A model generated the notes under the pieces. It was not told the origin of the DNA. It did not search any database and saw nothing but the letters and a program-made list of their open reading frames with translations. Shown here in pieces: positions 15,264 through 58,802 of a stretch of DNA of 64,000 bases (the stretch's first letter is position 1; each line of letters opens with the position of its first letter). The stretch is from NCBI RefSeq assembly GCF_014138265.1, contig NZ_JACGXL010000004.1, positions 248,001 to 312,000 of the forward strand, written 5' to 3'. The translations under genes were made by a program, and so were the position numbers. The DNA is from Dokdonella fugitiva. Lineage in GTDB: Bacteria; Pseudomonadota; Gammaproteobacteria; Xanthomonadales; Rhodanobacteraceae.

Positions 15264-16682
15264 ATGCGCGTCCTCGTTCTCCTCCTCGCGACCCTGTCCG
15301 CCCTCGTCGCGGCGACCCCCGCGGTCGCCGCCGACGGCGACCTCGAACCCAACTACGGCACCGACGCCGAGTTCCCCGGCTTCGGCTTCTACGCCAACCC
15401 GAACGGCAGCCCGACGTTCACGCTGGACACCGCCGATGCGCTGCTGCCGCGACCGGACGGCAAGATGTGGCTGGTCGGCCGCATGCGCGGCCCCTCCAGC
15501 GTCTACCGCATCAGCCTGTACCGGATCGGCGCGAACGGCTATCCGGACACCGATTTCGGCGATCTCGGCCTGCGCAGTGTCGTCGGCCCGTGCGACGACT
15601 TCCACATCGGCGACGCCGCCCTCGACAGCCAGGGTCGCATCCTCGTCGCGACGCAGAATTGCACCGACTTCAAGGTCTACCGCTTCCTCGACAACGGCGA
15701 CCTCGACTTCAGCTTCGGCGGCACCGGCGTCGTGAGCATCGCGTTCGACCTCGGCGCAAGCAACGAGGATCATGCGCAGAAGATCGTCGTCACCGAGGAC
15801 GACGGCTTCGTCGTCGCCGGTGTCGCCGACGCCGTCGGCGGCGATCATCTCGCGCTGGCGCGCTACACCGCCGCCGGCGAGCCCGTGGCGGAGTTCGGCA
15901 CGGGCGGCAAGCTCGACATCGGCTTCGAATGGCAGGTGTCGCCGGTCAGCGGCCTCGGCGGGCTGCACCGCATGGACGACGGCCGCATCGTCGCCACCGG
16001 GCAGATCAGCGAGAGCGACCAGGCCGTTTCCGACAAGAAGCAGTTCGTCGTGCGCCTGCTCGCCCAGGGTGCGTTCGATCCGTCGTTCGGCAACGTGTCG
16101 CCGGGCATCTCCAAGGTGAACCTGAAGGCGCCGCTCGGCCTCGCGCGGTCGCCGTGGGTCAGCCGCTCGCTGCTCGAACGCGACGGCTCGGTGATCCAGG
16201 TCGGCTCGCTGCTTTCCAACGACCCGATCTCGAGCAACGACATCTTCCTGTTGCGCTGGCGCGCCGACGGCCAGCTCGACACCAGCATCGGCGCGCACGG
16301 CGTGCGCTCGTACGCGCTCGACTTCGCCGGCGCCAATCCGCCGCAGCCCAGTTCGAATTCGGACATGGCCGACGCGATCGTGCGCCAGGGCGACGGCAAG
16401 TACGTGATCCTCGCCACCGGATACGCGGGCGATTTCTACGCGACGACCGTGATGCGACTGCGCCGCGACTTCAGCCTCGACCCCGCCTTCGGCGACGGCG
16501 GAGCCGTGCAGCACCTGGCCATGGTGGCGACCAACGGCGACCACGGCACGCTGGCCGGTAGCGCACTCGTGCTGCCCGGTCGCATCATCGCGGCCGGCAC
16601 GTCGTTCACCGGCATCAACGGGCGCATCCAGACGACGTTCGCGATGAGCAACGACCTGTTGTTCGCCGACGGCTTCGAATGA
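15264..16682 (+). CDS. Secreted delta-60/DUF5122 repeat beta-propeller protein with FADGFE tail
   Basis: This 472-residue protein has a signal peptide (VLVLLLATLSALVAATPAVAA) and then repeated blades of the delta-60 type. The 'G-x-LDxSFG' signature recurs as DNGDLDFSFGGTG, AAGEPVAEFGTGG, AQGAFDPSFG, ADGQLDTSIGAHG and RDFSLDPAFGDGG. Such proteins are exported; their role is unknown. The ATG at 15264 is preceded by CGGAG at 15251-15255. The very end reads LLFADGFE, a tail shared by other secreted proteins in this window. A GC-rich hairpin separates it from the convergent next gene. Confidence 0.85.
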   Translation: MRVLVLLLATLSALVAATPAVAADGDLEPNYGTDAEFPGFGFYANPNGSPTFTLDTADALLPRPDGKMWLVGRMRGPSSVYRISLYRIGANGYPDTDFGDLGLRSVVGPCDDFHIGDAALDSQGRILVATQNCTDFKVYRFLDNGDLDFSFGGTGVVSIAFDLGASNEDHAQKIVVTEDDGFVVAGVADAVGGDHLALARYTAAGEPVAEFGTGGKLDIGFEWQVSPVSGLGGLHRMDDGRIVATGQISESDQAVSDKKQFVVRLLAQGAFDPSFGNVSPGISKVNLKAPLGLARSPWVSRSLLERDGSVIQVGSLLSNDPISSNDIFLLRWRADGQLDTSIGAHGVRSYALDFAGANPPQPSSNSDMADAIVRQGDGKYVILATGYAGDFYATTVMRLRRDFSLDPAFGDGGAVQHLAMVATNGDHGTLAGSALVLPGRIIAAGTSFTGINGRIQTTFAMSNDLLFADGFE

Positions 16683-16683
16683 A

Positions 16684-16721
16684 CCGCGGCGGCCGGGCAC
16701 CGACGTGCCCGGCCGCCGCGG
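16684..16721. terminator. 17-bp perfect hairpin between convergent genes
   Basis: The inverted repeat CCGCGGCGGCCGGGCAC (16684-16700) and its exact complement (16705-16721) surround a CGAC loop. It lies between two convergent stop codons. No T-run follows on either side, so it may act as a bidirectional barrier or with a termination factor and not as a classic intrinsic terminator. Confidence 0.6.
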
Positions 16722-16724
16722 ACG

Positions 16725-18077
16725 TCAGTTCTCGAAGCCGTACGCGAAGATCACGTCCGACAGCACCGACTCGTCGACGAGCACGAAAATATCCGACACG
16801 CCGTTGCCGTCGTCGGGATCGATGTTGCTCGCGCTCGACTCCCACGCCATCGACAGACCCGAGGCGTTCACGCCGATCGAGTAGCCGGCCGCGCTGTTGC
16901 CGGGCTGGCCGCCCGTCGTCCCGCTGATCATCTCCGGCGAACCCGCGCCCGGCACGAACAGGAACACCTGCGGATACGAACCCGGCCCGACCCACGCGTA
17001 GTTGCAATGGAACACTACGCTGCCGACGTCGGAAACAGCCGACACGGCACAGCTGTCGTAGGAACCGGCGGGAAGGACGGGAGGCCGCGGGATCGCCGTC
17101 GTGACGCCGGTCTGGCGGTCGCGCAGGTAGACGCCGCTGTTGCTCGTCTCGCTCGCGCCATCGGCGTAACCGAGCCCACCGTAGCTGCGGTTCTGGAAGC
17201 TGACGAAACGACCGCCCGGCGAGATCGCCGGGCGATACGCGAACGCGCTCGATCCGCTCGCGGCTGCAGCGCTACGGCTGATCAGTTCGGTCGTGTTCGA
17301 CTGCAGGTCGCGCACGTAGGCTTGCCCGCTCGTCGCACCGGCCACCATCGCGTCGCTGCAGAGCATCGCGAGGTAACGTCCGCTCGCCGACAGCGCGTGC
17401 GGCTGCAGCGAGCAGTTGCTGCCCGACGCGCTGCCGTTGGCCAGCACCGACGCCATCTTCACCTGCCCGGTCGCCATGTCCTTGACGTAGATTTCCCCGG
17501 AGCTGCCGGCGGGAGCGGAACTGCCGTCCGGACGGCCCGCGATGCCGGTCATGGCTGCAACGGCCTGGAACGCGACGTAGCGACCATCGGCCGAGATCGA
17601 GACCGTGTTGTCCTCGGTGCCGCTGCTGGCGGGCTGGCCGGTGGCCGTGGCGCTGGCCAACTCCAGCGCGCCGGTCTGGCGATCCTTGCGCAGCACCTGC
17701 CAGTTCGGCCCGTACGAAGGATTGATGGTGAGGAAGGCGACGTAGCGCCCGTCGCCGGACACGACCGGCGAAATGCCGCGGAACACGCTGCCGCCGAGCG
17801 CGGACACCGCTTCGACCACGCCCGTGTCGAGGTCGACGGCGACCGCACGCGTGCCGTTGTAGGTATCACCGACCCAGTTGTTCGCGTCACTGGCGAACAC
17901 CACGGTCCGACCGTCCGAGGAGACGTCGACGCTCGTGGACGCGCCGTTGGCCTCGACGCCGGCTCCCGGCACGAGGCGGGCATAGATGAAGTCGGCGCGT
18001 GCGGGACAGGCCACCATGGCCATCCCCCACGCGATGAGCGCGCAGGCGGACATGCGCAGCGGCGATGAGGCATTCAT
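16725..18077 (-). CDS. Secreted TolB/PD40-like beta-propeller protein with FAYGFEN tail
   Basis: A 450-residue exported protein. The signal peptide reads ALIAWGMAMVACPARA. Repeated 'S-x-DGRYVAF' blades follow: SVDVSSDGRTVVFASDANN, VVSGDGRYVAFLT, SISADGRYVAFQA, ALSASGRYLAML, AISPGGRFVSFQ. These are of the WD40-like/PD40 class found in TolB and secreted peptidases. No catalytic domain is visible. The C-terminus reads SDVIFAYGFEN, matching the tail on neighbouring secreted proteins. The ATG at 18077 is preceded by GGGAG. It is divergent from the next gene and convergent with the delta-60 gene. Confidence 0.8.
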   Translation of the reverse strand: MNASSPLRMSACALIAWGMAMVACPARADFIYARLVPGAGVEANGASTSVDVSSDGRTVVFASDANNWVGDTYNGTRAVAVDLDTGVVEAVSALGGSVFRGISPVVSGDGRYVAFLTINPSYGPNWQVLRKDRQTGALELASATATGQPASSGTEDNTVSISADGRYVAFQAVAAMTGIAGRPDGSSAPAGSSGEIYVKDMATGQVKMASVLANGSASGSNCSLQPHALSASGRYLAMLCSDAMVAGATSGQAYVRDLQSNTTELISRSAAAASGSSAFAYRPAISPGGRFVSFQNRSYGGLGYADGASETSNSGVYLRDRQTGVTTAIPRPPVLPAGSYDSCAVSAVSDVGSVVFHCNYAWVGPGSYPQVFLFVPGAGSPEMISGTTGGQPGNSAAGYSIGVNASGLSMAWESSASNIDPDDGNGVSDIFVLVDESVLSDVIFAYGFEN

Positions 18078-18245
18078 GTTCGGAACTCCCGGATTGGTGG
18101 TACGCAATCCAGTACGCGGTTCCGCGGCCGATCCCCGAACCGGCGCGCGGACGCGCCTTCACGCACCGGGGAGAGTCCGGTAGCCTCTCGGGTCCGCCTG
18201 ATTTCGGCGCGCAGCCCTACTTCCCCGTACCGAGCACGATCCATC

Positions 18246-19283
18246 ATGCCGCCCAGCCATCGTCCGCGCGCACTGTGCGCCACCCTCCTGCTCGCCCTCG
18301 CCGCTGCCCTGCCGATCGTGCACGCCGGGCGCGTCGAGCCTCCGGTCGAACTCCTCTACGCACCCGGCAACCTGCTCGTCGCCGGCAAGGTGATCGAAGT
18401 CGACGAACGCGGCGGCCGCCTCGTCTTCGAGCGCAAGGACGTGCTCGGCAAGGGTCGCCCGCCCGAACAGGTCGACGTGCGCGCATCCGCCGCCGCGCTC
18501 GCGCGCGTCAAGTCCGGCCAGCGCTACATCTTCGGCTACTCGCTCGCGCGCGCCGACGCCCGCGACCCGCTGCGCACGGTCGCCGATCCGCGCGGCGCCA
18601 CGCTGCTGTCCAGCATCGGCCTCGACCCTGCCCTGTTCGACGACACGCCGCTCGCACGCTCGATCCTCAAGGCCGGGCGCAGCGAACACGGCCGCGAGTC
18701 GAGGCGCTTCTTCGACCTGCTCCTGCGAGGCCTCGAGAGCCAGGACGCGTCGCTGCAATACCTCGCGGCGGGCGAGATCGCGCTCGAACCCGAAATCAGC
18801 GAGCGCTTCGAGGACGAACGCGCGCGCGCGCGCGTCGAGAAAGTCGCGCGCGACCAACATACGCCGCCGCATGTTCGCGCCTCGCTGCTGCAGTCAGCCG
18901 CGTCACGCCCCGGCGAACTCGGCGACTGGTGGCGATCGGTCGCGATGGACGTAGTGACAACTACGCCTTCAGGCGGATATTCTCGGGAATCCTCGGAGTC
19001 CGCGGAACTCATCCTGCTGGCCCTCGAGGAGCTCGATCAACACGCCGTTCCGGTCGCCGCCGATGCGCTCTCGCGTTGGGTGCGAAGCCCGAGTCCGCCC
19101 GTGGTGGAGCGAGCCTGTCTGATGCTGCGCAAGTTGTCCGCCCCGGCCGAACGCGATGCAATCCGCGACGCGCTGGCCGAGCCGGGCCTGCCGGAGCAGA
19201 CACGCAAATTTCTGAACGATCATCTGCGCCGCCTCGACGTGATGGATGCGAAGTTGAAGGCGCGGAAAGGCGGAGCCGACTGA
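18246..19283 (+). CDS. Secreted protein of unknown function with HEAT-like helical repeats
   Basis: I do not recognise a family. The 345-residue product has a signal peptide (LCATLLLALAAALPIVHA, cleavage near residue 27). A short beta-rich part follows (ELLYAPGNLLVAGKVIEVDER). From about residue 150 it is a series of Leu/Ala-rich helices (SLQYLAAGEIALEPE, VRASLLQSAASRPGELGDWW, VVERACLMLRKLSAPAER) that look like degenerate HEAT-type repeats. It is divergent from the PD40 gene across 168 bases and is followed after 79 bases by a large secreted protein. A periplasmic location is expected. Confidence 0.65.
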   Translation: MPPSHRPRALCATLLLALAAALPIVHAGRVEPPVELLYAPGNLLVAGKVIEVDERGGRLVFERKDVLGKGRPPEQVDVRASAAALARVKSGQRYIFGYSLARADARDPLRTVADPRGATLLSSIGLDPALFDDTPLARSILKAGRSEHGRESRRFFDLLLRGLESQDASLQYLAAGEIALEPEISERFEDERARARVEKVARDQHTPPHVRASLLQSAASRPGELGDWWRSVAMDVVTTTPSGGYSRESSESAELILLALEELDQHAVPVAADALSRWVRSPSPPVVERACLMLRKLSAPAERDAIRDALAEPGLPEQTRKFLNDHLRRLDVMDAKLKARKGGAD

Positions 19284-19362
19284 TCGTCATTCCGGGGCAG
19301 GTGTCGGCCGCCTGCCGCAGCGGAGAAGCAAGCGCCGCCAAGTCTTTCGGGGAGTTGCACCC

Positions 19363-22299
19363 ATGGTTCTATCGCGTTTCCTGCCTGCCGCGCTGGGCGC
19401 GGCCGTCTGCGCCGCCTTCGGCGCGTCGGCCGCACCGGTGACGGTGACCAAGCCGACCGCCAGCGCACCGGAAATCCTTCCGACCGTCATGCACGCTGCG
19501 CGCGCGGACATTTCCGCACCGTTGCGCGACATCCTGCGCACGATGCCGCCGGCCTCGCCGATGGGCACCGAGCAGGAGCCGTTCGAAGTCCCGAACGTCC
19601 TGCTCAAGCCGACCGCGCGCACGAGTTCGTTCGTGCCCGACTATTCGCGCATGCAGACGCGCGGCAGCGGCGTGCCCGCGCCGACGATCGACCTCACGTT
19701 CGAGGCGATCAGCTCGACCACCTCGGGCTGCGGTTGCCTTCCGCCCGACACCAACGGCGACGTCAGCGACACGCACTTCATCCAGTGGGTCAACTCGTCG
19801 TGGCAGGCCTTCGACAAGGTCACCGGCGTGCCGGATCCGAATACGCTGACCCCGCGCCCGGGCAACTCGTTCTTCACCGGCTTCGGCGGCAAATGCGAAA
19901 CGACCAACTCGGGCGATCCGCTCGCGATCTGGGATCCGCGCGCGCAGCGCTGGGTCATGAGCCAGTTCGTGACGAGCTCGCCGTTCGCGCAGTGCGTCGC
20001 GGTGTCGACCACATCCGATCCGTTCGGCACGTACGCCCGCTACGAGTTCAACTGGCCGAACTTCGGCGACTACCCGCACATGGGCATCTGGACCGACGGC
20101 GCGGGCCAGGACGCGTACGTACTGACGACGCACGAGTTCAACGCGTCGAACGCGTTCCAGGGCGCGTCGCTGATCGCGCTCGAGCGCGACAAGATGCTCG
20201 CCGGCGACCCGACCGCGGCGATGGTGCGCTTCCCGGGCTTCGACGCGTACGGCGTCGAGCCGGTCAACCTCACCGGGTCGCTCAACGCGCCGACCAACGC
20301 GTGCCCGAGCTTCGTGCACTTCGACTCGGTCTCGAGCGAGTACCTGTTCTGGGACCTCTGCCTCAACTGGACGACCCCGGCCAGCTCGACCATCTCGTCG
20401 ACGCCGACGCGCGTCCAGGGCGCGCCGTTCGTGCCGTTCTTCGACGAAGTGCCGCAGCAGGGCAGCGGTGCCGGCCTCGATCCGTTCGGCACGCACATCA
20501 TGTATCGCGCCAACGCGCGCGCCTTCCCCGCCGACGCGCCGACGCGCATCTCGCTCGTCGTCAATCACGTCGTGCAGGGCAACGTGCAGCAGGGCGGCAT
20601 CAACTGGGTGCATTTCGACCTCGACGACCACGGCGCCAATCCGCCGACGCCGACGCCGCTCGATCGCCACATCGTCGACGAGGGCGTGTACGCGCCGGAC
20701 AGCAACACGCGCTGGATGGGCGGCATCTCCATCGATGGCAGCGGCAACATCGGCGTCGGTTTCTCGAAGTCGAGTTCGGCGATCCATCCGCAGATCGAGA
20801 TCAGCGGTCGCACGCTCGACGATCCGGCCGGCACGCTGCGTGACGAGACGAACTGCACCGACACGATCGCCAACGGTTCGCAGACGAGCACGAGCAACCG
20901 CTGGGGCGACTACTCGGCGATGACCGTCGACCCGGTCGACCAGTGCACGTTCTATTTCACGACCGAGTACTACCCGCTCACCGCAGGCGCGAGCTGGCAC
21001 ACGCGCGTGTGCTCGTTCAAGTTCGACAACTGCGGCGACCCGAACTACGCGCTCGTCGCCGAGACGCCCAAGCGCGTCGAGATGTGCGAGGCGACGACCA
21101 CGGGCGATCCGACCTACGGCCTGCGCGTCGGCGTGCTCAATGGCTTCAACAGCGCCGTCACGCTCGCCGGCAACGGCCTGCCCGCGGGCGCGACCGCGCA
21201 GTTCTCGGCCAATCCGGTGACCGCGCCGGGCTCGAGCACGCTGACCCTCGTCGGCGGTTCGACCCTGCCGTCCGGCGAATACGTGTTCGGCGTCGATGCC
21301 ACGAGCGGCTCGCTGACGCGCAGCATCGCGCTCGAACTCGGTGTCTCGGCGAATGCGCCGACGCCGGTCACGCTGATCCTGCCGACCGACACCGCCAGCG
21401 GCGTGAAGGTGCGTCCGCTGCTCAGCTGGGGCACGATCGATTCGACCGACCGCATCTTCGCCGACGGCCTCGACGGCGTCGCGCCGCCGCCGGTCGTGGT
21501 GCCGAGCGACGCACTCGAGTACCTCGTCGAAGTCGCGACCGACTCGGCGTTCTCGAACATCGTCGCCAGCGCGACCGTGACGGGTACGACTTGGACCGTC
21601 GACACGACGCTCAACAGCACCACGACGTACTACTGGCGCGTCACGCCGAGCAACTACTGCGGCCCGAGCGCGCCGTCGGCGACGTTCTCGTTCACCACCG
21701 GCACGCCGGGCACCTGCCCGGGCGGCACGACGTCCACGACGGTGTACCAGGAGAACTTCGACGCGGGCGCCGGCGGCTGGACCGCGGCCGGCACCGGCGG
21801 CACGGGCTGGACGCAGGGCGCGGCTCCGGCCGGCACCGGCTTCACCACGCCGGTCTGGAAGGTGCCGGACAACACCGTGAGCAGCGACCGCACGTTGACG
21901 TCGCCGTCGATCGTGCTGCCGGCCGGTGCGCAGGCGATCATCCTGTCGTACGACGCGTACCACAAGTCGGAACAGGATCCGCCGGGCGGCTGCTGGGACA
22001 GCTCCTCGCTCGAGGCGAGCACGAACGGCACGACGTTCGACTATCTCGATGCGAGCCGCATGTTCACCGACCCGTACAATGGCGTCGCCTCGGCCGGTGC
22101 TCCGCTCGCGGGCCGTCAGGGCTGGTGCTATCCGGGTCCGGCCGGCACGGCCGCACCGTCGCACGCGATCGTCGACCTCGACAGCTTCGCCGGTCAGTCG
22201 GTCAACCTGCGCTTCCGCATGGTGTCCGACTCGAACACCGCCGCCGGAGCGCCGAATGGCCTCGCGATCGACAACGTGAAGGTCGAAGCGTGCCAGTAA
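19363..22299 (+). CDS. Large secreted multidomain protein with Fn3-like and MAM/jelly-roll-like C-terminal domains
   Basis: The 978-residue product has a signal peptide (FLPAALGAAVCAAFGASA), then a long domain to about residue 570 rich in aromatic and Gly/Asp residues (GCGCLPPDTNGDVSDTHFIQ, NRWGDYSAMTVDPVDQCTFY) that I cannot name. A beta-sandwich follows at about 570-660. An Fn3-like domain spans about 665-785 (VRPLLSW, YLVEVATDSAFSNIVASATV, TYYWRVTPSNYCG). The C-terminal part from about 798 (YQENFDAGAGGWTAAGTG to LRFRMVSDSNTA, GLAIDNVKVEAC) resembles 'choice-of-anchor' jelly-roll modules. Within the Fn3-like domain, residues 692-715 carry an insertion with DRIFADGLDG, like the C-terminal tails of neighbours. 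GGGGAG precedes the ATG. Confidence 0.8.
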   Translation: MVLSRFLPAALGAAVCAAFGASAAPVTVTKPTASAPEILPTVMHAARADISAPLRDILRTMPPASPMGTEQEPFEVPNVLLKPTARTSSFVPDYSRMQTRGSGVPAPTIDLTFEAISSTTSGCGCLPPDTNGDVSDTHFIQWVNSSWQAFDKVTGVPDPNTLTPRPGNSFFTGFGGKCETTNSGDPLAIWDPRAQRWVMSQFVTSSPFAQCVAVSTTSDPFGTYARYEFNWPNFGDYPHMGIWTDGAGQDAYVLTTHEFNASNAFQGASLIALERDKMLAGDPTAAMVRFPGFDAYGVEPVNLTGSLNAPTNACPSFVHFDSVSSEYLFWDLCLNWTTPASSTISSTPTRVQGAPFVPFFDEVPQQGSGAGLDPFGTHIMYRANARAFPADAPTRISLVVNHVVQGNVQQGGINWVHFDLDDHGANPPTPTPLDRHIVDEGVYAPDSNTRWMGGISIDGSGNIGVGFSKSSSAIHPQIEISGRTLDDPAGTLRDETNCTDTIANGSQTSTSNRWGDYSAMTVDPVDQCTFYFTTEYYPLTAGASWHTRVCSFKFDNCGDPNYALVAETPKRVEMCEATTTGDPTYGLRVGVLNGFNSAVTLAGNGLPAGATAQFSANPVTAPGSSTLTLVGGSTLPSGEYVFGVDATSGSLTRSIALELGVSANAPTPVTLILPTDTASGVKVRPLLSWGTIDSTDRIFADGLDGVAPPPVVVPSDALEYLVEVATDSAFSNIVASATVTGTTWTVDTTLNSTTTYYWRVTPSNYCGPSAPSATFSFTTGTPGTCPGGTTSTTVYQENFDAGAGGWTAAGTGGTGWTQGAAPAGTGFTTPVWKVPDNTVSSDRTLTSPSIVLPAGAQAIILSYDAYHKSEQDPPGGCWDSSSLEASTNGTTFDYLDASRMFTDPYNGVASAGAPLAGRQGWCYPGPAGTAAPSHAIVDLDSFAGQSVNLRFRMVSDSNTAAGAPNGLAIDNVKVEACQ

Positions 22300-22324
22300 C
22301 CGGCATCGCCTGACCTGCTTCGAA

Positions 22325-22357
22325 GAAACGGGCCGCCTCGCGCGGCCCGTTTCTTTT
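22325..22357 (+). terminator. Intrinsic terminator after the large secreted protein
   Basis: GAAACGGGCCGC (22325-22336) pairs perfectly with GCGGCCCGTTTC (22342-22353) around CTCGC, followed by TTTT. It starts 25 bases after the stop codon. Confidence 0.88.
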
Positions 22358-22511
22358 CGGGCGGCGATTCTTCCTGGCGCGACGCAAGTCCGTCGCGCGC
22401 ACGCTTCGTCGCGCTCGACCCGCGCTTCGGCGCAGTCCATGCCGCGCCTGCGATCGCAATCGCCACGCCCGTCCGTGTTCGGGAATCGACTCCCCCGCAC
22501 AGGACCTCGCG

Positions 22512-22860
22512 ATGTTCCGAATCCTCCCGCACGCCGCGTTGTCGGCGCTGCTCGCGACGTGCGCCGTGCCGCTCGCGCACGCGCAACTCGCCGACGCGCG
22601 GCAACTTCTTCGGCAGCGCGCCGCAGGCCTACGCGAACCTCATGCGCGTGTCGACGAGCGGTGCCGGCGCTCGCGACACCGGCTGGCTGCCTAACCCCGA
22701 CGCGCGCGTGCTCGCACTGCACGAGGACGGCGTGCGCAAGCGGCTCTACCTCGGCGGCGAGTACGCGAAGGTCGGCGCGGGCAGCCGCAGCGGGCTCGCG
22801 CGCATCGGCCAGGTGGCCGACCCCGACGTGATCTTCTTCTACGGCCACGACATCGAGTAG
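22512..22860 (+). pseudogene. Frameshifted remnant of a secreted delta-60-like protein
   Basis: A start with signal peptide (LPHAALSALLATCAVPLAHAQ) opens at 22512, but the frame turns to nonsense after about codon 29 and stops near 22694. Dropping one base in the GCGC at 22596-22599 restores GNFFGSAPQAYANLMRV and, downstream, RLYLGGEYAKVGAGSRSGLA. That is a single propeller blade of the DUF5122/delta-60 type, running to a stop at 22860. The restored product would be only about 116 residues: signal peptide, one blade, and an end [11 protein letters not shown] reminiscent of the F-x-D-G-F-E tail. So it seems both frameshifted and internally deleted. A sequencing error could explain the frameshift but not the missing blades. 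Confidence 0.55.
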
Positions 22861-22893
22861 GCGCAGGCGCGCCTGCGGCCCGGCCGGGCCAAG

Positions 22894-22923: not shown

Positions 22924-22937
22924 CCCGCCCCTGCCTT

Positions 22938-23073: not shown

Positions 23074-23080
23074 ATTGACC

Positions 23081-26173: not shown

Positions 26174-28636
26174 TCAGATCGGCGCGCCCGGCGGAATCGC
26201 CGGCAGCGGTCGCAGCTTCACCGACTTCGGGTCGGCCAGATATTTGCGGATCGTCTCGGCGGCGAGCGCACGACTCGCTCCGGCCGCGTCGCCGCCACCT
26301 TGCTTGCCGAGCCAGCCCTGCCATTGCTGCAGCGACGTGCGCACCTCGGCGTCGACCTGCGCATGCAGGCCACCGTCGTCGAGCACATGCAGCAACGCAT
26401 CGAGTACGACCCAGTTCGCGGCATCCTGCACCGCCGCCGCGGCCGGCGCTTCGCCGCCGCGCGGGTCCCGCTGCCAGCTGCCGCGGAACGCCGCCGCGAG
26501 CACGTCGGCGACGCCCGGCTGCTGCGCGTCGCGCGCGTGCTGCCAGGCGAGGCGGTTGAGGCGTTCGGGCGCGAACAGGAACAGCGTCGTCTGCGCCGCC
26601 GCGGCCTCGACCGCGGCGAGCGGGTCGAACACCGGCCCGGCCTTCGTCGCGAAGTACTCGCGATTGCGCGCGTACTCGTTGCCGGGCGGCGTGACCAGGT
26701 CGAGCACGTTCGCGGGCAACGCGAGCTCGCTCGCACCGAGGTTGCCGACGAGGCGCGCGAGCGCGGCGCGCTGCGTCGCCGCCGGCACCGGCGTCGTGCC
26801 GGCAGCGCGGTCGCCGGCTTGCGCATACGCGTAGCTCGCACCCGCGAGCAGGCGCGCGACGGCCTCGGTCTGGTAGCGATGCAGCAGGTACACCGGCACG
26901 AGGCGTGCCTCGAGTTCTCCGACCTGGCGCTCGGGCGGAAGCACGCCGATCGAGAAGTGCGCGAGCGCGTTGCGGCGCGCGGCGAGCAGTGCGTCGAACG
27001 TCTGCAGCGTGTCCGCGCCGGAATCCCACAGCAGGCCGTCCGGCTCCGCGTCGCCGGGGCTGCGCGCGTCCTGGTCGCTCACGTAGCGGAAGCCTGCCTT
27101 GGCGATGTCGGCGCGCAGTTTCGCGAGCGCGGCGTCCTCGCTGCCCGCGGCGAACTGCGCGTACGCATGCGCGACGATGAAGTCGTCCCACGCACCGACA
27201 CCGATGCCGTAGGCGCCGTCGAGCGAGAGCGCGCCGTCGGCACCGAGCTTCAGCAGCGGATGCGGATAATCCATCACGGAGCCGTTGCCGCCACGGCTCG
27301 CCGCGAAGTTGTGCGCGAAGCCGAGCGCATGGCCGACCTCGTGCGCGGCGAGCTGGCGCAGGCGCGCGAGCGCCATGCGTTCCGCCTCGGCCTTCAGTTC
27401 CGGCGCGTCCTTCTTGTCGTAAGGCGCGAGCAGGCTTTCCGCGATGAGGATGTCCTGGCGCACGCGCTGCGAACCGAGCGTGACGTTGCCGCGGATGATC
27501 TCGCCGGTGCGCGGATCGACGATCGGCTGCCCGTACGACCAGCCGCGCGTGTGTCGATGCGCCCAGGTGATGAGGCTGTAGCGCACGTCCATCGGATCGA
27601 CGCCTTCGGGCAGCAGCTCGACCCGGTAGGCATCCTTGAAGCCGGCCTTCTCGAACGCGCTCTTCCACCAGCTCGCGCCTTCGAGCAGCGCCGAGCGCAC
27701 CGGCTCGGGCGTGCCGCGGTCGAGGTAGAACACGATCGGCTTCTTCACCGCACTCGTCGCCGCGGCGGGATCGGTCTTCTCGAGCCGGAAGCGTGGCTGC
27801 ACACGCCGATCGAGCGACGAGGCGAGCGGCTGCGCGTAGTCGTACCAGCCGACGCTGAGCCCGCCCGACGCGGGATGGTACGCGCGCGGCACGTAGCCCG
27901 GCGCCGGCAGGCGCACGAAGCTCAGGTGCTGGCGCAGCGTGAGGCTGCGCGGATCCATCGCGACGTCCTTGACGAACGCGCCCTCGGCGGGGCCACGCAA
28001 CGTGAGCAGGCCTTCGAGTTCGGTGTTGTCCGGGAAACTCTTCGCGTCGGCGAGCGACGGCGCGCTGCGCTTTTCGTCGACTTCGTACTTGCCTTGCTTC
28101 GCCTGCTCGAGCCGCTCGGCGATGCCGTGGCGATCCGACACGAGCAGCGCGCTCACGTCGACGAGCACCTCCGCATCGGCGCCCTTGCGCTCGGCGACGA
28201 TGTCGCCGGCCCAGAGCACCGATTCGGCGAACGCCTGGCGCACGCTGAGCACTTCATCGGCGTTGTTCGACGCCGCGCGGAACTTCGTGTTGTCCTCGAC
28301 CAGCAGCACGCGCGCACCGACGCGCCGCCATTCGACCAGGTGCGACTCGCTGCTCTGCCCGCGATCGAGCCCGACGTCGTTCGAACCGAGCGCCCACGGC
28401 AGCGAACTAGTCATGAGGAACGGCTGGCCGAACGCGCGCACGCCGAGCAGCACGCGTCCCTTCGCCTCGTCGCGATAGACGTCGAAGAAGCCCGGCACCG
28501 ATACCAGCCCGCGCGTCGCGGCCGCGAAATCGGCGATCGCGCCCCCGGCCTTGTCCGGTGGCGCCGGCGCGGCTTGCACCGCGACGACGAACAGCCCCGC
28601 CAACACCCCACCCGCCATCCGCACGCTCGGCCGCAT
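26174..28636 (-). CDS. Secreted zinc metalloprotease of the DUF5117/DUF4953 type
   Basis: An 820-residue exported protein with signal peptide (MAGGVLAGLFVVAVQAAPA). The N-terminal DUF5117-like region (GLVSVPGFFDVYRDEAKGRVLL) precedes a DUF4953-like catalytic part. The latter has the metzincin zinc motif HEVGHALGFAHN (H-E-x-x-H-x-x-G-x-x-H) and a Met-turn-like GSVMDYPHP about 20 residues on. The rest is helical. Such proteins are common in Xanthomonadales and Bacteroidetes and are thought to degrade peptides outside the inner membrane. The ATG at 28636 (MRPSVRMAGG) follows GGGGGA. Its end is coupled to the DUF3228 gene, and it diverges from metF. Confidence 0.87.
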   Translation of the reverse strand: MRPSVRMAGGVLAGLFVVAVQAAPAPPDKAGGAIADFAAATRGLVSVPGFFDVYRDEAKGRVLLGVRAFGQPFLMTSSLPWALGSNDVGLDRGQSSESHLVEWRRVGARVLLVEDNTKFRAASNNADEVLSVRQAFAESVLWAGDIVAERKGADAEVLVDVSALLVSDRHGIAERLEQAKQGKYEVDEKRSAPSLADAKSFPDNTELEGLLTLRGPAEGAFVKDVAMDPRSLTLRQHLSFVRLPAPGYVPRAYHPASGGLSVGWYDYAQPLASSLDRRVQPRFRLEKTDPAAATSAVKKPIVFYLDRGTPEPVRSALLEGASWWKSAFEKAGFKDAYRVELLPEGVDPMDVRYSLITWAHRHTRGWSYGQPIVDPRTGEIIRGNVTLGSQRVRQDILIAESLLAPYDKKDAPELKAEAERMALARLRQLAAHEVGHALGFAHNFAASRGGNGSVMDYPHPLLKLGADGALSLDGAYGIGVGAWDDFIVAHAYAQFAAGSEDAALAKLRADIAKAGFRYVSDQDARSPGDAEPDGLLWDSGADTLQTFDALLAARRNALAHFSIGVLPPERQVGELEARLVPVYLLHRYQTEAVARLLAGASYAYAQAGDRAAGTTPVPAATQRAALARLVGNLGASELALPANVLDLVTPPGNEYARNREYFATKAGPVFDPLAAVEAAAAQTTLFLFAPERLNRLAWQHARDAQQPGVADVLAAAFRGSWQRDPRGGEAPAAAAVQDAANWVVLDALLHVLDDGGLHAQVDAEVRTSLQQWQGWLGKQGGGDAAGASRALAAETIRKYLADPKSVKLRPLPAIPPGAPI

Positions 28637-33378: not shown

Positions 33379-34872
33379 CTATCCGCCCGGGCACGTCGGT
33401 GGCAGCTCGAGCTCGAATCCATCGCTGAAGACGAAATCGCCCTGTTGCACTTCGTACGCGCCGATGTCGGCCGCGGCGCCCGACACGCGCGCCTGCCCGC
33501 GCTGGTCGAAGATGCCGATCCCCGCAGCGAGGGTATTGCCCGCGTCGATGGCGGGGCTGCCTGCGAACAAGGCATGCGTCTGCGTGGGACCGCCGTTGTC
33601 GCGCAAGGGTTGGAGCTGCGGGCACACGCCTCTCGTCAGCGTGTTCGGCAGGCCGATGATCGTCGTCGCGAACGCGAGGTTGTTCGAGCCGTTGGTCGGG
33701 GTGGAGTTGACGCTGCCCGAGGTGAACTTGGCCACGCCGATGTCGTCGGCCGTCGCCATCGGGTTGCTGTAGGTGTTGTTCGAGAATATCGAGCTTTGCA
33801 GGGTCACCGCCTTGAACGTCGTCGTGCCGTCGGCGCCGGAGTCGGAGATGGTCAGACCCGGTGCGTAGTGGCGCGAGCCCGAGCCGGTCGCCGACCCTGC
33901 CGTGTTGAAGGCGACGGTGGCGTTGTAGACGTGGATGGTTCCGGCATTCGTCTGGACGCCGCCGACGCGCAGGGTGCCGAGATTGCCGGACACGGTGCTG
34001 TTCAACAGGGTGAAGGTGTCGGACGCGCTGCTGAGGTTGTCCTGCATGTACACGCCGCCGCCGAAGACCGCGGTGTTGCCGGAAATCGTCGATGCGATGA
34101 CCGACACGCTGTGGAACGCGCGCAGGCCGCCGCCCATGCCGGTCGACGCCGAATTGCCGCTGAGCGTGCTGCTGGCGAGGATGACCTGGCTGTTGGGATC
34201 GTTGGGCCCGATCGGGCCGGCCAGGCCCGCCGTGTAGATCCCGCCGCCACCGCCCAGCCCACCGCCCGTGTGGGTCGCGACATTGCCCGTGATGTCGCTG
34301 TACTTCGCAAAGATATCGCTCAAGGCGTAGATGCCGCCGCCGCGCGCCGCCGCGCCGACCGCGCTCGCGCGGCACGAGCGAACGGCGGCGTGGCTCAGGT
34401 AGACCTTTCCGTTCGAACGGATGCAGCCGCCATCGGCCGAGATTCCAGCGGACGGATGCAGATACCCGTTGGCCACGGTGAGGTTCTTCACGGCCAGCGT
34501 GCCGCCGAGGCCGTCGTGCCGAAAGACGCGATCGCTGCCATTCTCGATGGTCAGAGCATCCTTGCCCGGACCGATCAGGGTGATGTCGGCCTGTGGAAGC
34601 ACGATGGTTCCACCACCGCCAGTGGTCAGCGAGATCGTGCTGCACGCCAGCGCCGACATGTCGATGGTGTCGCCGCTGGCCGCGTTCGCGGCTGCATGGC
34701 GCAGGCTGCCGGTGGTGCCGCTGCCGGTATCGGCATCGTCGCAGGTGTCGACCGTCCAGGTCGTCGCCGCCGCAGCGGTCGCCGACGCGGTCAGGCAAAG
34801 GATCGCCGCAAGGCAGGCCGCGAGCGGGGTGCGGCGCACCGGCGCGCACGGCGATGGGATCGAATCGAACAT
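33379..34872 (-). CDS. Secreted right-handed beta-helix protein with choice-of-anchor Q-like region and FSDGFE tail
   Basis: A 497-residue exported protein with signal peptide (AACLAAILCLTASATAAAA). It begins TTWTVDTCDDADTGSGTTGSLRHAAANA, typical of polymorphic-outer-membrane-type repeats. Many short strands with 'S-T-x-S-G-N-x-A' turns follow (SSTLSGNSAS, ASTISGNTAVFGGGVY, NSTVSGNLG), building a beta-helix. Near the end, GSPAIDAGNTL, FDQRGQARVSG and DIGAYE form the 'choice-of-anchor Q' signature. The last 20 residues read FVFSDGFELELPPTCPGG, the shared tail plus a short Pro/Cys extension. The ATG at 34872 is preceded by GGGAGAG. Confidence 0.86.
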   Translation of the reverse strand: MFDSIPSPCAPVRRTPLAACLAAILCLTASATAAAATTWTVDTCDDADTGSGTTGSLRHAAANAASGDTIDMSALACSTISLTTGGGGTIVLPQADITLIGPGKDALTIENGSDRVFRHDGLGGTLAVKNLTVANGYLHPSAGISADGGCIRSNGKVYLSHAAVRSCRASAVGAAARGGGIYALSDIFAKYSDITGNVATHTGGGLGGGGGIYTAGLAGPIGPNDPNSQVILASSTLSGNSASTGMGGGLRAFHSVSVIASTISGNTAVFGGGVYMQDNLSSASDTFTLLNSTVSGNLGTLRVGGVQTNAGTIHVYNATVAFNTAGSATGSGSRHYAPGLTISDSGADGTTTFKAVTLQSSIFSNNTYSNPMATADDIGVAKFTSGSVNSTPTNGSNNLAFATTIIGLPNTLTRGVCPQLQPLRDNGGPTQTHALFAGSPAIDAGNTLAAGIGIFDQRGQARVSGAAADIGAYEVQQGDFVFSDGFELELPPTCPGG

Positions 34873-42469: not shown

Positions 42470-42543
42470 TGGAGCGGGTGAAGGGAATCGAACCCTCGTC
42501 AGTAGCTTGGGAAGCTACAGCTCTACCATTGAGCTACACCCGC
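42470..42543 (-). tRNA. tRNA-Gly (anticodon CCC)
   Basis: The minus strand folds into a full 74-base cloverleaf with encoded CCA. The acceptor stem GCGGGTG pairs with CACCCGC, the D arm is GCTCAATGGTAGAGC, the anticodon stem GTAGC/GCTAC holds loop TTCCCAA (anticodon CCC), and the T arm is GAGGGTTCGATTCCCTT. It closely resembles E. coli Gly-CCC tRNA. Confidence 0.97.
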
Positions 42544-49544: not shown

Positions 49545-49548
49545 AGGG

Positions 49549-51515: not shown

Positions 51516-51617
51516 CGTTCGTCGCTCGCTCCGTTTCCATCCGCTCGCAGGACTGCGAGTCGGTCGTCGCGAAAGAGCTTGCCGTGCCGTTCAAGGGCAA
51601 CGACGAACGGCGTACCG

Positions 51618-51643
51618 CCCCTCTCCCGCAAGCGGGAGAGGGG
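51618..51643. repeat. Interspersed palindrome between convergent genes, possible bidirectional terminator
   Basis: CCCCTCTCCCGC (51618-51629) and GCGGGAGAGGGG (51632-51643) are perfect complements around AA. The CCCTCTCCCGC-AA-GCGGGAGAGGG element is a common intergenic repeat of proteobacteria. It is placed between the EamA gene and the end of the ABC operon. Confidence 0.7.
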
Positions 51644-51724
51644 AAAGCGAGCAACGCGCGCTACCGACACTGCGAACCACCCGGCGACTCGCTCCGAAGA
51701 AGAGCGAACCGCCCGGTTCGAACC

Positions 51725-53050: not shown

Positions 53051-53061
53051 GCGGTTCTCCT

Positions 53062-54222: not shown

Positions 54223-54233
54223 CGCGGCCTCCG

Positions 54234-54923: not shown

Positions 54924-55072
54924 GACGGTTGTCCTCGGTTTTTGCAGTCGTTCGTGTTGGTCGCGCCGGCTGCCCGGCGCACGATCGCGGCATGCGGCCC
55001 GCGCTACCGGCGGGTCGTGCCCGCCCCTGCTCGTCGCGCGCCGCGACGGCGCGCCGTCCTGCTGCTTCGACG

Positions 55073-56308
55073 CTACTTCCTGACCGCGACGCGCGCGCCG
55101 TCGGCGAGTTCGGCCGTCGGCTCGCGCACGATGCGCGTGCCGACGCCGACGCCTTCGACGAGGCGCTGGTCGGCGTAGGTCTGGCCCGGCGTCACCGCGC
55201 GCATGCGCGCGCGGTCGCCGTCGAGCGCGAACACGACGCTCCTGCCATCGCGCTGCACGATGCTCGCGGACGGCACGAGCACACCCTTCGGCGCCTCCGC
55301 CGCGACGGCCTTCGGCTTGTTCGTGTCTTCGAGGAACGACACGCGCACGCCCATGTCGGGCACGATGCGTTCGTCCTTCTGTTCCATCGCGACGCGCACC
55401 TTCACGGTCGCCTTGCCGCGATCGGCGGTCGGGATGATCGCGATGACGTGGCCGGGGATCTTCCATTCCGGATACGCGTCGAGGACCGCCTCGACCGGCT
55501 GCTTCGCGGTGACGCGGTTGATGTAGGACTCGTTGACGTCGACCTCGACCTCGAGCGAATCCATGTCGACGATCGTGCCGACGCCGGTGCGCGTGAAGCC
55601 ACCGCCGGCCGACAGCGGCGAGACGATCTCGCCCGGCTGCGCCGCCTTCGCGATCACCACGCCGGCGAACGGCGCGCGGATCGTGCAGTAGTCGAGCTGC
55701 ACCTGCGCGCCGTCGACCGCGGCCTTGGCGACATCGACCTGGCGCCGCTGCGACTCGAACAGCGCCGCCTGCGAATCGACCTGCGTGCGCGCGAGCTCGA
55801 CCGCCTGCTTCGACACGAGCTTGCGGCCGACCAGTTCCTCCGCACGCGCGACGTCGCGCCTGCTCTGCGCGAGCTGGGTGCCCAGTTGCACGAGCTGCGC
55901 CTGCGCCGCGCGATAGCCGGCCTCGGCTTGCGCGAGCTGCGCCTTCTGCGCGGTGTTCTCCAGGTGCGCGAGCACCTGGCCCGCCTCGACGCGCTCGCCT
56001 TCCTCGATGAGCACGTCGGTGAGCGTGCCGGTGATCTGCGCCGACACGGTCGCCTGGCGCCGCGCGGTGACGTAGCCGGTCGCCTGCAGTACCGCGAGCG
56101 GGCCGGTGCCGGCGGCACTCGGCGCGTTCGCGGTCACCGCCTCGACCTCGATCGCCTTCGCGTCGTGCATGAACCACCAGCCGCCGCCGACGGCGAGGCC
56201 GAGCACGAGCACGCCGGCGACGGCGCCGATCCACGCGCCCGCGCCGCGACCGGCGCGCGGCGCGCTGCGATCGATGCGCAATTGTTGCAACAATTCCGAT
56301 TTCTCCAT
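55073..56308 (-). CDS. Periplasmic adaptor (HlyD/MacA-type) of the ABC exporter
   Basis: A 411-residue membrane-anchored adaptor. It has a cytoplasmic start (MEKSELLQQLRIDR) and one TM (AWIGAVAGVLVLGLAVGGGW). A barrel/lipoyl part follows (GYVTARRQATVSAQITGTLT, EGERVEAGQVLAHLENTAQ), with a coiled-coil hairpin at about residues 115-190 (KAQLAQAEAGYRAAQAQLVQ) and the returning lipoyl half YCTIRAPFAGVVIAKAAQPGE. Beta-barrel and membrane-proximal domains complete it. The arrangement matches MacA. ATG 56308 follows GGGAG. It is the first gene of the operon; an outer-membrane TolC-type partner would be elsewhere. Confidence 0.93.
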   Translation of the reverse strand: MEKSELLQQLRIDRSAPRAGRGAGAWIGAVAGVLVLGLAVGGGWWFMHDAKAIEVEAVTANAPSAAGTGPLAVLQATGYVTARRQATVSAQITGTLTDVLIEEGERVEAGQVLAHLENTAQKAQLAQAEAGYRAAQAQLVQLGTQLAQSRRDVARAEELVGRKLVSKQAVELARTQVDSQAALFESQRRQVDVAKAAVDGAQVQLDYCTIRAPFAGVVIAKAAQPGEIVSPLSAGGGFTRTGVGTIVDMDSLEVEVDVNESYINRVTAKQPVEAVLDAYPEWKIPGHVIAIIPTADRGKATVKVRVAMEQKDERIVPDMGVRVSFLEDTNKPKAVAAEAPKGVLVPSASIVQRDGRSVVFALDGDRARMRAVTPGQTYADQRLVEGVGVGTRIVREPTAELADGARVAVRK

Positions 56309-56411
56309 GCCACACCGCTCCCGCGTGGACGCACAGCTCTCAAGTCTGCCATAGACTGGTGCCTGCACCGCCGCGGAACAAGCCGCGGCGGTCACGCGAC
56401 GGAGATGACAG

Positions 56412-56849
56412 GTGTCACCAGCGTCGGCCGGCTATTCCGGCAAACCGGTCTGGCAAAAACTCGGCCTCGCGGCCGAGCTGCGCGTGCTCGTGCGCGACGC
56501 GCCGTCCGACTACGCGGCGCTCGTCGGCCGCGCGCCGGAACAGCTGCGCCTCGTCGGCGCTCGCGCGGCGTTCGACTTCGCGCACGTATTCGTCACGACG
56601 CGGGCGCGGCTCGCCGCGGAACTCGCCGCGCTCGACGCGCGCCTGCCCGACGAGGGGACGATCTGGGTGTCGTGGCCGAAGAAGGGTTCGAGCGTCGCCA
56701 GCGACGTGGTCGAGGGCACCGTGCGCGAGGTCGCGCTGCCGCTCGGCCTCGTCGACGTCAAGGTCTGCGCGGTCGACGCGACTTGGTCCGGACTCAAGCT
56801 CGTGCGACGGCGCGAGCGGCGCGGCACGCGTCGAGCGCTGCTATCCTGA
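56412..56849 (+). CDS. DUF3052 family protein
   Basis: A 145-residue cytosolic protein of the uncharacterised DUF3052 family. It opens SAGYSGKPVWQKLGLAAELRVLV, the family's glycine/lysine block, and later has GTIWVSWPKKGSSVASDVVEGTVREVALPLGLVDVKVCAVD, which is highly characteristic. The start is GTG at 56412, preceded by GGAGATGACAG. It diverges from the ABC adaptor gene and is followed by an FAA-hydrolase gene after 25 bases. Confidence 0.85.
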   Translation: MSPASAGYSGKPVWQKLGLAAELRVLVRDAPSDYAALVGRAPEQLRLVGARAAFDFAHVFVTTRARLAAELAALDARLPDEGTIWVSWPKKGSSVASDVVEGTVREVALPLGLVDVKVCAVDATWSGLKLVRRRERRGTRRALLS

Positions 56850-56874
56850 CGCGATCGCTGCCGCGGACCCCGTC

Positions 56875-57561
56875 ATGACCTTCGCCATCGCCGCACCATT
56901 CGTGCCGAGCCTGCCGGTCGCCGGCGACGACATGCGCTTCCCGATCCGGCGCATCTACTGCATCGGGCGCAACTACGCCGAGCACGCGAAGGAAATGGGT
57001 GCGAGCGTCGAACGCTCGCAGCCGATGTTCTTCATGAAACCGGCCGACGCAATCGTCGCCGACGGAGGCGACATCGCCTATCCATCGGCGACCGCCGACC
57101 TGCACCACGAAGTCGAGATGATCGTCGCGCTCGCGCGCGGCGGCCACGACATCCCGCGCGAGCACGCGCTTGACTGCGTGTTCGGCTACGGCGTCGGCCT
57201 CGACCTCACCCGACGCGACCTGCAGGCCGCGGCGAAGGCGAAGGGGCATCCGTGGGACGCGGCGAAGGGCTTCGACGCGTCGGCACCCGCGTCGGCGCTG
57301 CATCGCGTCGCCGACGTCGGCCATCCGCGCCGTGCGCGCCTCTCGCTCGAGGTCAACGGCGAGTTGCGCCAGCAGGCCGACATCGCCGACATGATCTTCG
57401 ACGTCGCCGCGATCATCCACGAGTTGTCGCGGTTGTGGACGCTCGCACCCGGCGACCTCCTCTACACGGGTACGCCGGCCGGTGTCGCCGCGTTGCGGCG
57501 CGGCGATCGCGTGGTCGCCGTGCTCGACGACATCGCGCGGCTCGAAGGCCGGATCGTGTGA
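56875..57561 (+). CDS. Fumarylacetoacetate hydrolase-family protein (acylpyruvase-like)
   Basis: A 228-residue cytosolic enzyme of the short FAA fold, distinct from the FahA at the other end of the window. It has RRIYCIGRNYAEHAKEMG, PMFFMKPADAIVADGG and the metal-binding acidic set (HHEVEMIVALARGG, YGVGLDLTRRDLQ), with the lysine segment KGFDASAP and GDLLYTGTPAGV. Length and motifs fit acylpyruvate hydrolase or oxaloacetate decarboxylase relatives (FAHD1-like). The exact substrate is unknown. Its stop overlaps the start of the next gene (TGATG-type). Confidence 0.88.
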   Translation: MTFAIAAPFVPSLPVAGDDMRFPIRRIYCIGRNYAEHAKEMGASVERSQPMFFMKPADAIVADGGDIAYPSATADLHHEVEMIVALARGGHDIPREHALDCVFGYGVGLDLTRRDLQAAAKAKGHPWDAAKGFDASAPASALHRVADVGHPRRARLSLEVNGELRQQADIADMIFDVAAIIHELSRLWTLAPGDLLYTGTPAGVAALRRGDRVVAVLDDIARLEGRIV

Positions 57562-58802
57562 TGGCCATGCCATCGCGCGCACGCGTCGGCGCGTCGGCGC
57601 TCGCGCTGCTGCTCGCGGGCCTCGCGATACCCGCGCAGGCACAGTCGATCCGCGATGCGAACATCGCCGCCGGGCGCATCCGCAGCGACCTGCCCGCCGG
57701 CGTCGGGGTGACGGGCCACTGGCTCGAGATCGCCTACGGCCAGCCCGGTGCCGAGGGCTGCCTGTGGGATTCGGCCGCGTCGTTCTCCGCCTGCCCGGCG
57801 CGCGCAGGGTGGCCGGATCGCCCCGACGGCACGCCGGTCTGGGCCGGCGGACAACAGCGCAGCGAGGCCTGCGGCGGCTCGACCACGCGCGTCGGCGACT
57901 CGTGGGTCGGTTGCCTCGCCTACGACCAGAACCCGTATTTCGCGCTCGGCAATCCCGCCAGCGCGTACTGGGTGCTGGTCGCCAACGACGAGCCGAGCTT
58001 CGACCAGTGCAACGAAGGTCCGCCCGGCTCGTCGCACCGCGTCGCCAGCGCGAGCGCGCAGCCGCGCACGATGTTCAAGCTCGACGTGCTGTCGAACGCG
58101 CCCGCGCCGGGCAAGCGCCTGCGCTTCGCGGTCGACCTCGGCGACAAGGACTTCTTCTGCGCGCGCACCGGTCGCTACGAATACAGCATCCCGTTCCTAT
58201 CCGTCGGTGCGCAAGACGGGCGAGGCAACAGCGGTCCGGTCGGCTACGTGAACCGGCGCGGCTCGCCGCGCGGAACGATCGTGTTCGACGCCGCGATCAG
58301 CAGCCACGCCGCGATCGCCTGCCGCAGCGGCACGCAATCGATCTGCTCGCCGTCCTCGCTCGGCGTCCACGCGGGCCTCTATGCGTACGCGACCTGGGGC
58401 GGCGTGCCGCGCCTCGTCTTCATCGACCTGTACGGCTCGGGCGCGCTCGACTATTCGGGCGGTCCGCCCGGCGAGTCGAAATGGAACTGGCCGGTGCGCG
58501 ACAGCTTCCAGTACCCCGGCGCGGAAGTGCTCTTCTTCGTCGCCGGCGAGTCGATGCTCACGTACTGCGGCATCGACGTCGCGCGCCTGCCGCTGCAGGG
58601 CACGCGCGTGCGCTACTCGATCGACCTCGGCAAGGTACTCGCCTGCGCCGATGCGCGTGGCCTGCCGACCCAACCGATGCCCGACGGCGACATCGCGCTC
58701 GACGGCGTGCACTGGTACATCGAAGGTTCGGGCACGCAGGGTTCGCTCGGCCTCGACGTGTCGGCGATCGAGACCGCCGTGTTCGTCGACGGCTTCGACT
58801 GA
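57561..58802 (+). CDS. Secreted protein of unknown function with FVDGFD tail
   Basis: I do not recognise a family. The 413-residue product has a signal peptide (ASALALLLAGLAIPAQAQ). The mature part is rich in Gly, Ser, aromatic residues and cysteines (GCLWDSAASFSACPARAGW, QRSEACGGSTTRVGDSWVGC, FCARTGRYEYSIPF). It looks like one large disulphide-bonded beta domain, with no catalytic motif. It ends AVFVDGFD, matching the tails of the other secreted proteins here. It overlaps the FAA-hydrolase stop by one base, so translation is coupled, an odd pairing of cytosolic enzyme and secreted protein. Confidence 0.72.
   Translation: MAMPSRARVGASALALLLAGLAIPAQAQSIRDANIAAGRIRSDLPAGVGVTGHWLEIAYGQPGAEGCLWDSAASFSACPARAGWPDRPDGTPVWAGGQQRSEACGGSTTRVGDSWVGCLAYDQNPYFALGNPASAYWVLVANDEPSFDQCNEGPPGSSHRVASASAQPRTMFKLDVLSNAPAPGKRLRFAVDLGDKDFFCARTGRYEYSIPFLSVGAQDGRGNSGPVGYVNRRGSPRGTIVFDAAISSHAAIACRSGTQSICSPSSLGVHAGLYAYATWGGVPRLVFIDLYGSGALDYSGGPPGESKWNWPVRDSFQYPGAEVLFFVAGESMLTYCGIDVARLPLQGTRVRYSIDLGKVLACADARGLPTQPMPDGDIALDGVHWYIEGSGTQGSLGLDVSAIETAVFVDGFD

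Follow-up and report, generated by a model that had tools for sequence, protein, structure and literature searches.

A short C-terminal tail on unrelated signal-peptide proteins of Dokdonella fugitiva and its possible link with a second type II secretion system

The window analyzed here, a stretch of 64,000 nucleotides from Dokdonella fugitiva (contig NZ_JACGXL010000004.1, positions 248,001 to 312,000), raises the question of what a short tail does at the C-terminus of four proteins with different folds. The first is a delta-60 repeat protein of 472 amino acids, counted from the ATG used (15264..16682, + strand), in which the tail F-A-D-G-F-E (16662..16679) lies immediately 5' of the stop codon and the reading frame ends LLFADGFE* at 16682. 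On the - strand, a PD40 propeller protein of 450 amino acids (16725..18077) carries F-A-Y-G-F-E (16731..16748), followed by one N and the stop (VIFAYGFEN*, ending at 16725). A beta-helix protein with a choice-of-anchor Q domain (497 amino acids, 33379..34872, - strand) has F-S-D-G-F-E (33412..33429) and ten further residues before the stop (FVFSDGFE plus LELPPTCPGG*, ending at 33379). Finally, an exported protein of unknown fold, 411 amino acids from the ATG used (57567..58802, + strand), ends with F-V-D-G-F-D (58782..58799) directly at the stop (AVFVDGFD* at 58802).

All four tails are found where the earlier note on this DNA had placed them, and its statement that all four proteins possess a signal peptide holds by reading; a home-made scan detected three, namely those kept by its ORF picker, which skipped some genes including that of the beta-helix protein. 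The same note had listed a frameshifted remnant with the tail at 22860. An open reading frame does end there, but its F-F-Y-G-H is off-motif and the frame has no Pfam match; it was excluded from all counts. Not all exported proteins are tailed, since the large open reading frame at 19363-22299 contains a signal peptide and ends with KVEACQ.

In the 4.77 Mb genome the pattern F-x-x-G-F-[DE]-stop has 34 matches versus 0 for the reversed pattern, and all 34 are in-frame ends of open reading frames. This confirms that the tail is real, genome-wide and beyond chance. The search patterns end in TRR and admit TGG besides the true stops; a true stop is present in all 34 home-genome matches, while the counts for 151 genomes given below contain some TGG endings. 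The consensus is D-x-[ILV]-F-x-[DN]-G-F-[ED], and the number of residues after it ranges from 0 to about 20. Among 97 tails, 82 end with the motif and 15 continue, and in four orthologues 18-21 residues follow. Where the motif is not exactly at the stop, it lies within 20 residues of it in 24 of 32 cases, a count that leaves out the exact-at-stop motifs, which were the reason most loci were fetched. The codons of the tail differ synonymously among the genome matches (GAC/GAT, AAC/AAT, GGC/GGT/GGG and GCC/GCG), and conservation is therefore at the protein level and not that of a DNA repeat. For the PD40 protein, D-x-I-F-A-x-G-F is invariant across six orthologues, and a structural model of modest quality places the tail beyond the last strand with a pLDDT below 50.

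By eye, a signal peptide is present in 31 of the 34 tailed proteins of the home genome; L038, L041 and L045 are without one in the open frame. The home-made scan reported 29 of 34, two of them at implausible starts. The enrichment that the earlier note had proposed to look for is seen with this crude scan, in which 64 of 97 tailed ORFs are positive compared to 258 of 982 other ORFs. The tailed proteins are presumably exported. In a set of 36 tailed proteins many folds are represented, including beta-helix, FG-GAP, delta-60, GH44, S8 and GSDH, and choice-of-anchor domains (eight Q and one J) are located just before the tail. An alignment of these 36 revealed invariant residues in the tail alone, at its two F positions and its G.

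Tails are abundant within one order of Gammaproteobacteria, that of the home genome, where 58 of 151 genomes have at least eight matches of the G pattern, a threshold for "tail-rich" that was chosen after the table had been seen. Among 226 genomes sampled outside the order, no genome exceeds nine matches, and reversed controls reach 12. Two matches on one contig of G181, from another order, were dismissed as chance since the ORFs have 9 and 35 codons. Within the order, family f10 displays a variant tail, F-x-D-R-F-E-x, with 84 matches (81 with a true stop) in 14 of 24 genomes versus 2 in the 127 others; this variant was first noticed in orthologues and searched for afterwards. The tail is shown to drift lineage by lineage.

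The earlier note had asked for a co-occurring transport system, and such a system was identified. It is T2SS-B, a second type II secretion system with a PDZ domain at the C-terminal end of its GspC; PDZ matches were obtained in 10 of 10 T2SS-B GspC proteins scanned, six of them above a Pfam cut-off. A genome was called positive with a GspK match of E <1e-50, with split f10 genes (G051, G065, G109), or with a GspC match of E 3.8e-9 or better, the weak GspC matches of G047 and G081 being excluded. GspK-profile and GspC calls are concordant in 146 of 151 genomes. On this basis T2SS-B tracks tail abundance: it is present in 56 of the 58 tail-rich genomes and absent from the other two, and 63 of the 65 genomes lacking it are tail-poor, leaving 30 that are tail-poor with T2SS-B (counts that ignore the species tree). 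In the home family f1 the match between T2SS-B and tail is 5/5 versus 0/20. Furthermore, the sole tail-poor genome among 24 in f9, G019, has no GspG, GspK or GspC match. Signal-peptide enrichment, the C-terminal position, the unrelated folds and an abundance that follows a transport system together support the proposal of the earlier note that the tail is a sorting, secretion or processing signal.

There are exceptions to this distribution. The largest is f10, the family with the variant tail, which accounts for 24 of the 30 tail-poor genomes with T2SS-B; a GspC loop difference specific to f10 was considered and dropped, as G117 breaks the pattern. In f8, G097 (98% complete) is without T2SS-B and has eight strict matches, of which the four that were read are true, and G056, G063 and G132 are likewise without T2SS-B and retain single tails. 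G082 and G127 (f8) and G061 (f2) contain T2SS-B or a relative and show one or two matches, and G059 (77% complete) is tail-rich with neither T2SS-B marker. Tail-less GSDH homologues also occur in genomes with T2SS-B (G008, G028, G117, G084, G029, G099). In f1 the GSDH gene is absent where T2SS-B is absent, and cargo loss and tail loss are therefore inseparable there. Adjacency of tail genes to the T2SS-B operon was considered and discarded, a tail being present at 2 of 20 loci.

Judged from sequence and distribution, there is roughly an even chance that the tail is a linear signal recruiting folded proteins to T2SS-B, perhaps via GspC. Here, the proteins would be exported by Sec and fold in the periplasm; the tail, placed after the folded domain as a short linear signal, would protrude and dock the cargo at T2SS-B, most plausibly at the PDZ domain of GspC, and the docked cargo would then be pushed outward through the secretin. 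These bacteria also have an Xps-type system, whose GspC is without PDZ domain and which would not read the tail. Somewhat short of even are the chances of the stronger claim, that this would be the first linear and portable T2SS export signal. It would consist of six loosely defined residues that have drifted as one unit in a single lineage (G to R), with a PDZ-type GspC as reader and, in each cell, dozens of folded cargos unrelated to one another. Counting against a role in T2SS-B recruitment, to our knowledge the T2SSs of other orders function without such a tail.

In another phylum, type IX secretion likewise uses a C-terminal address on unrelated cargos crossing the outer membrane; this address is a folded domain tens of residues long, compared to six residues here. 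Closer are the type II cases in which the EpsC PDZ domain is required for VesB and the PDZ domain of OutC binds a disordered PelI loop, both described in PMC12369372. Common to these and the tail system are a PDZ-bearing GspC, cargo that would fold in the periplasm, and a flexible cargo element that is able to contact the PDZ domain or, in the case of the tail, would do so. In contrast, the described elements comprise Ig or Fn3 folds and loops belonging to single cargos, whereas the tail is one short element on unrelated folds; according to the authors, no linear universal T2SS signal is known (PMC12369372). The presence of the tail follows the T2SS with the PDZ-type GspC, apart from f8 and the 30 tail-poor T2SS-B genomes. 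A classical PDZ ligand has a free carboxylate directly after its motif; since residues may follow the motif here, no free carboxylate would be needed at this place.

In Vibrio, the GlyGly-CTERM proteins exported by the T2SS are substrates of rhombosortase. This leads to the main rival to recruitment by T2SS-B, in which the tail would be the recognition site of a processing, ligating or anchoring enzyme with a sortase-like role on cargo exported by T2SS-B, and the link with T2SS-B would be indirect. We regard this as rather unlikely. As in the GlyGly-CTERM/rhombosortase, PEP-CTERM/exosortase and LPXTG/sortase systems, a short C-terminal signal is placed on many unrelated signal-peptide proteins per genome and is co-distributed with one partner system; this pattern of many cargos for one partner, together with the choice-of-anchor domains that precede the tail, resembles sorting signals, and an enzyme would permit the tails of G097, G063 and G132. 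Moreover, genomes with GlyGly-CTERM generally bear a T2SS as well (PMC3237569). On the contrary, the three known signals consist of a motif, a TM helix and a basic cluster (PMC3237569), while the tail has six residues, an acidic end and no known processing enzyme; as the earlier note had said, neither TM helix nor basic end is present in the tails read, extensions included. The [DN]-G-F core is reminiscent of legumain-type sites, and peptidase C13 was considered as partner enzyme for this reason and rejected. It is present in 25 of 25 f1 genomes regardless of tails and is absent from the tail-rich f3 and from 23 of 24 f9 genomes, so that the co-occurring protease envisaged by the earlier note did not emerge from C13, the sole family covered. 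Clustering of the neighbours of tail genes in 12 genomes yielded no family in more than five genomes, and none stood out.

Improbable, though in keeping with the many surface-type proteins in the set (beta-helix, FG-GAP, delta-60), is a function at the end of the route, namely retention on the cell surface or within vesicles through an outer-membrane or surface partner; no such partner is known, and the set also comprises freely secreted enzyme types (GH44, S8, GSDH). Even less probable is that the tail shields C-termini from periplasmic proteases or aids folding and is merely common in these secretomes. Its location at or near the C-terminus would suit this, but a fixed F-x-[DN]-G-F-[ED] would be unneeded, long extensions after it would not be tolerated, and the tracking of T2SS-B would not be expected. 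Very improbable and rejected here are two readings by which the tail would be the final strand of a single homologous domain, which the earlier note had named as a refutation, or a repeated DNA element where genes end. Nothing speaks for them except the similarity itself, and against them stand the different folds, the restriction of invariance to the tail, the synonymous codons and the low-confidence tail past the propeller in the PD40 model.

In line with the earlier note, whose author knew of none, no published description of the tail was found in a literature search that left most subscription journals and bioRxiv preprints outside its scope. How T2SSs choose their folded cargo is an open question, and recent papers know of no conserved or linear signal (PMC11981180; PMC12369372). 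The tail may be the short export address so far missing for type II machines. If this is true, a deletion, a graft and a binding assay, one of each, would be enough to put cargo selection to the test, sequence would suffice to list the cargo of T2SS-B, and a location could be predicted for many surface proteins of the same order that are as yet unnamed.

Four exported proteins of the window had been proposed to share a short C-terminal tail, and all four tails were recovered at the positions claimed. They are carried by a delta-60 repeat protein (tail at 16662..16679, +), a PD40 propeller (tail at 16731..16748, -), a choice-of-anchor Q protein, which is a beta-helix by reading (tail at 33412..33429, -), and a protein of unknown fold (tail at 58782..58799, +). 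The PD40 protein shares 84% identity with a Dokdonella fugitiva protein, which places the window in Dokdonella or a very close relative. The earlier note had also called for a proteome-wide search and a test for signal peptides. Here, F-x-x-G-F-[DE]-stop gave 34 matches in the window's own assembly and none for the reversed pattern, and all 34, each of them read, end open frames of 80 to 1707 codons. A signal peptide was recognized by eye in 31 of these 34 proteins, and a crude scan of loci from several genomes revealed the enrichment as well (64 of 97 tailed ORFs in comparison to 258 of 982 other ORFs).

The ORF at 22300-22860 (+), which ends in [11 protein letters not shown] and resembles a propeller C-terminus there, gave no match in the Pfam scan and is possibly a decayed tail gene. 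It adjoins a large exported protein (19363-22299, +) that is tail-less and has weak Ig and MAM-type matches. An exported Met-zincin protein (DUF4953 with DUF5117; 26174-28636, -) is tail-less, too. The sole tRNA gene found in the window is a tRNA-Gly (CCC) at 42470-42543 (-).

The 36 tailed proteins of the genome scanned with Pfam and NCBIfam, the 34 exact ones and two window proteins with extensions, comprise GH44, S8, reprolysin, GSDH, FG-GAP, delta-60, BNR, DUF5666, beta-helix and Calx-beta types, with choice-of-anchor Q in eight and choice-of-anchor J in one. Their alignment is invariant solely in three tail columns, F, G and F. Of 97 tails, 51 have D at -3, 92 have I, L or V ahead of F, and 86 have D or N; the motif closes with E 67 times and with D 30 times, and 82 stop directly there (both F, the G or R between them and the closing D or E were prescribed by the search expression). 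Since most loci were fetched for exact terminal matches, placement was judged on the remaining instances, of which 24 of 32 lie within 20 residues of a stop (2.09 million residues, six-frame ORFs). D-x-I-F-A-x-G-F is invariant in six PD40 orthologues, including that of the window; one has Q where the others have E or D, and the motif is followed by one residue in two of them and by 18-21 in four. A modest AlphaFold2 model of the PD40 protein (six sequences, mean pLDDT 62.8) places the last strand at 429-435, and residues 438-450 have a pLDDT below 50.

Within the order, 151 genomes yielded 1899 forward and 241 reversed matches. The counts are bimodal, with at least 8 in 58 genomes (tail-rich) and 0-7 in 93 (tail-poor). 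True tails also occur at low counts (G005, six; G079, five; G114 and G056, one each), as found when 18 chosen genomes were searched with a stricter pattern and loci were read. In 226 genomes of the same class outside the order, the count peaks at 9, with reversed controls of the same table reaching 12; two matches in G181, a genome outside the order, were rejected as chance when the loci were read.

The order possesses two type II secretion systems, the Xps-type nearly everywhere and the PDZ-type T2SS-B, which is missing in 65 of 151 genomes. GspG matches of either type are present in 146 of the 151 and fall in two classes, the strong one tracking the tail within the home family f1. The strong-class operon, gspG-H-I-J-K-L-M-N, adjoins bioA and rsmE in several genomes; its genes were named by reading, GspG and GspC being backed by Pfam (type II secretion loci L124-L143; G000:C6:69487-72392; G000:C4:160051-160710; G000:C7:86875-87252). 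A GspK profile separates the two systems across the 151 genomes: T2SS-B scores 184-445 bits, or 104-117 for its three split genes, and the Xps-type at most 86. A second marker, GspC (PF11356), gives the same call as GspK in 146 of the 151 and reveals T2SS-B in three fragmentary tail-rich genomes without GspK. The earlier note had also called for a test of co-occurrence with a transport or protease gene. By both markers and ignoring the species tree, T2SS-B is present in 56 tail-rich genomes and absent from two, G059 (77% complete) and G097 (98%), and is present in 30 tail-poor genomes and absent from 63. At genus level, with R-tails included and the tree again ignored, these four classes count 26, 1, 8 and 29.

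Family f10 supplies 24 of the 30 tail-poor genomes having T2SS-B. Orthologues of GSDH, one of the tailed enzymes, end in FADRFEQ, FQDRFEDGAP, FEDRFEQ and FQDRFEQ in this family, and elsewhere in FADGFEGTIP, FIDGFES, FRDSFETLN, FGDRFEEGEE, FRDRFEPID and FEDRFEPPLPE. F-x-[DN]-R-F-E-x-stop matches 84 times across 14 of the 24 f10 genomes and twice in the other 127 (reversed controls, 8 overall). Of 30 such loci brought back (L188-L217), 29 have a true stop, and all end frames of at least 80 codons, the sole exception being a short frame on the edge of a contig. By these orthologue ends and this search, the f10 tail is largely the same, with R replacing G. Within the order, F-x-D-R-F-E-x tails are confined almost wholly to f10. 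Ten f10 genomes are without an R-match; six of them (G020, G119, G079, G051, G065, G072) harbor a GSDH homologue with a G- or S-type tail, some having L instead of the first F.

Several exceptions to the link lie in f8. Here, T2SS-B is absent from G097 with eight strict matches, four read as true tails, and from G056, G063 and G132, which kept single tails; G082 and G127 possess it with just 1-2 matches. In f2, G061 combines two matches with a divergent T2SS-B relative. Tail-less GSDH homologues are present in T2SS-B genomes (G008, G028, G117, G084, G029, G099), and f1 genomes without T2SS-B are also without the GSDH gene. This joint loss fits a T2SS-B cargo, but an export signal and a processing site would both be compatible with it. 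The main rival, that a processing or anchoring enzyme acts on the tail, is rather unlikely. Peptidase C13 was rejected as partner, as its distribution does not track the tail. A C13 (legumain-type) domain on a membrane protein (L063, G000:C1:663030-663431) is single-copy in each of 25 f1 genomes, and in f5, long frames contain 12 C13-like matches in G016 and 9 in G034. The comparison with GlyGly-CTERM was made solely through an excerpt of its published description, and a literature search for any description of the tail found none.

For export by T2SS-B, the tail would be read by the PDZ domain of its GspC. C-terminal PDZ matches are present in 10 of 10 T2SS-B GspC proteins scanned, six over a Pfam cut-off. 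The Xps-type protein at the GspC place gave no PDZ match in the scan of G063, and those of G063, G060 and G007 have charged or low-complexity ends by eye; this is consistent with Xanthomonas XpsC, described in an excerpt of PMC11981180 as a single helix without this domain. According to passages of PMC12369372, VesB requires the EpsC PDZ, and the OutC PDZ is bound by a disordered loop of PelI. Part of PMC7949064 proposes that flexible cargo loops become structured on contact with the T2SS. Strict carboxylate binding of the tail by the PDZ is ruled out, because residues follow the motif.

The tail is a real, protein-level C-terminal signal that in this analysis occurs in a single order, where it is linked to a T2SS of the PDZ type. 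Its best reading, given about an even chance, is that of a signal for export by T2SS-B.
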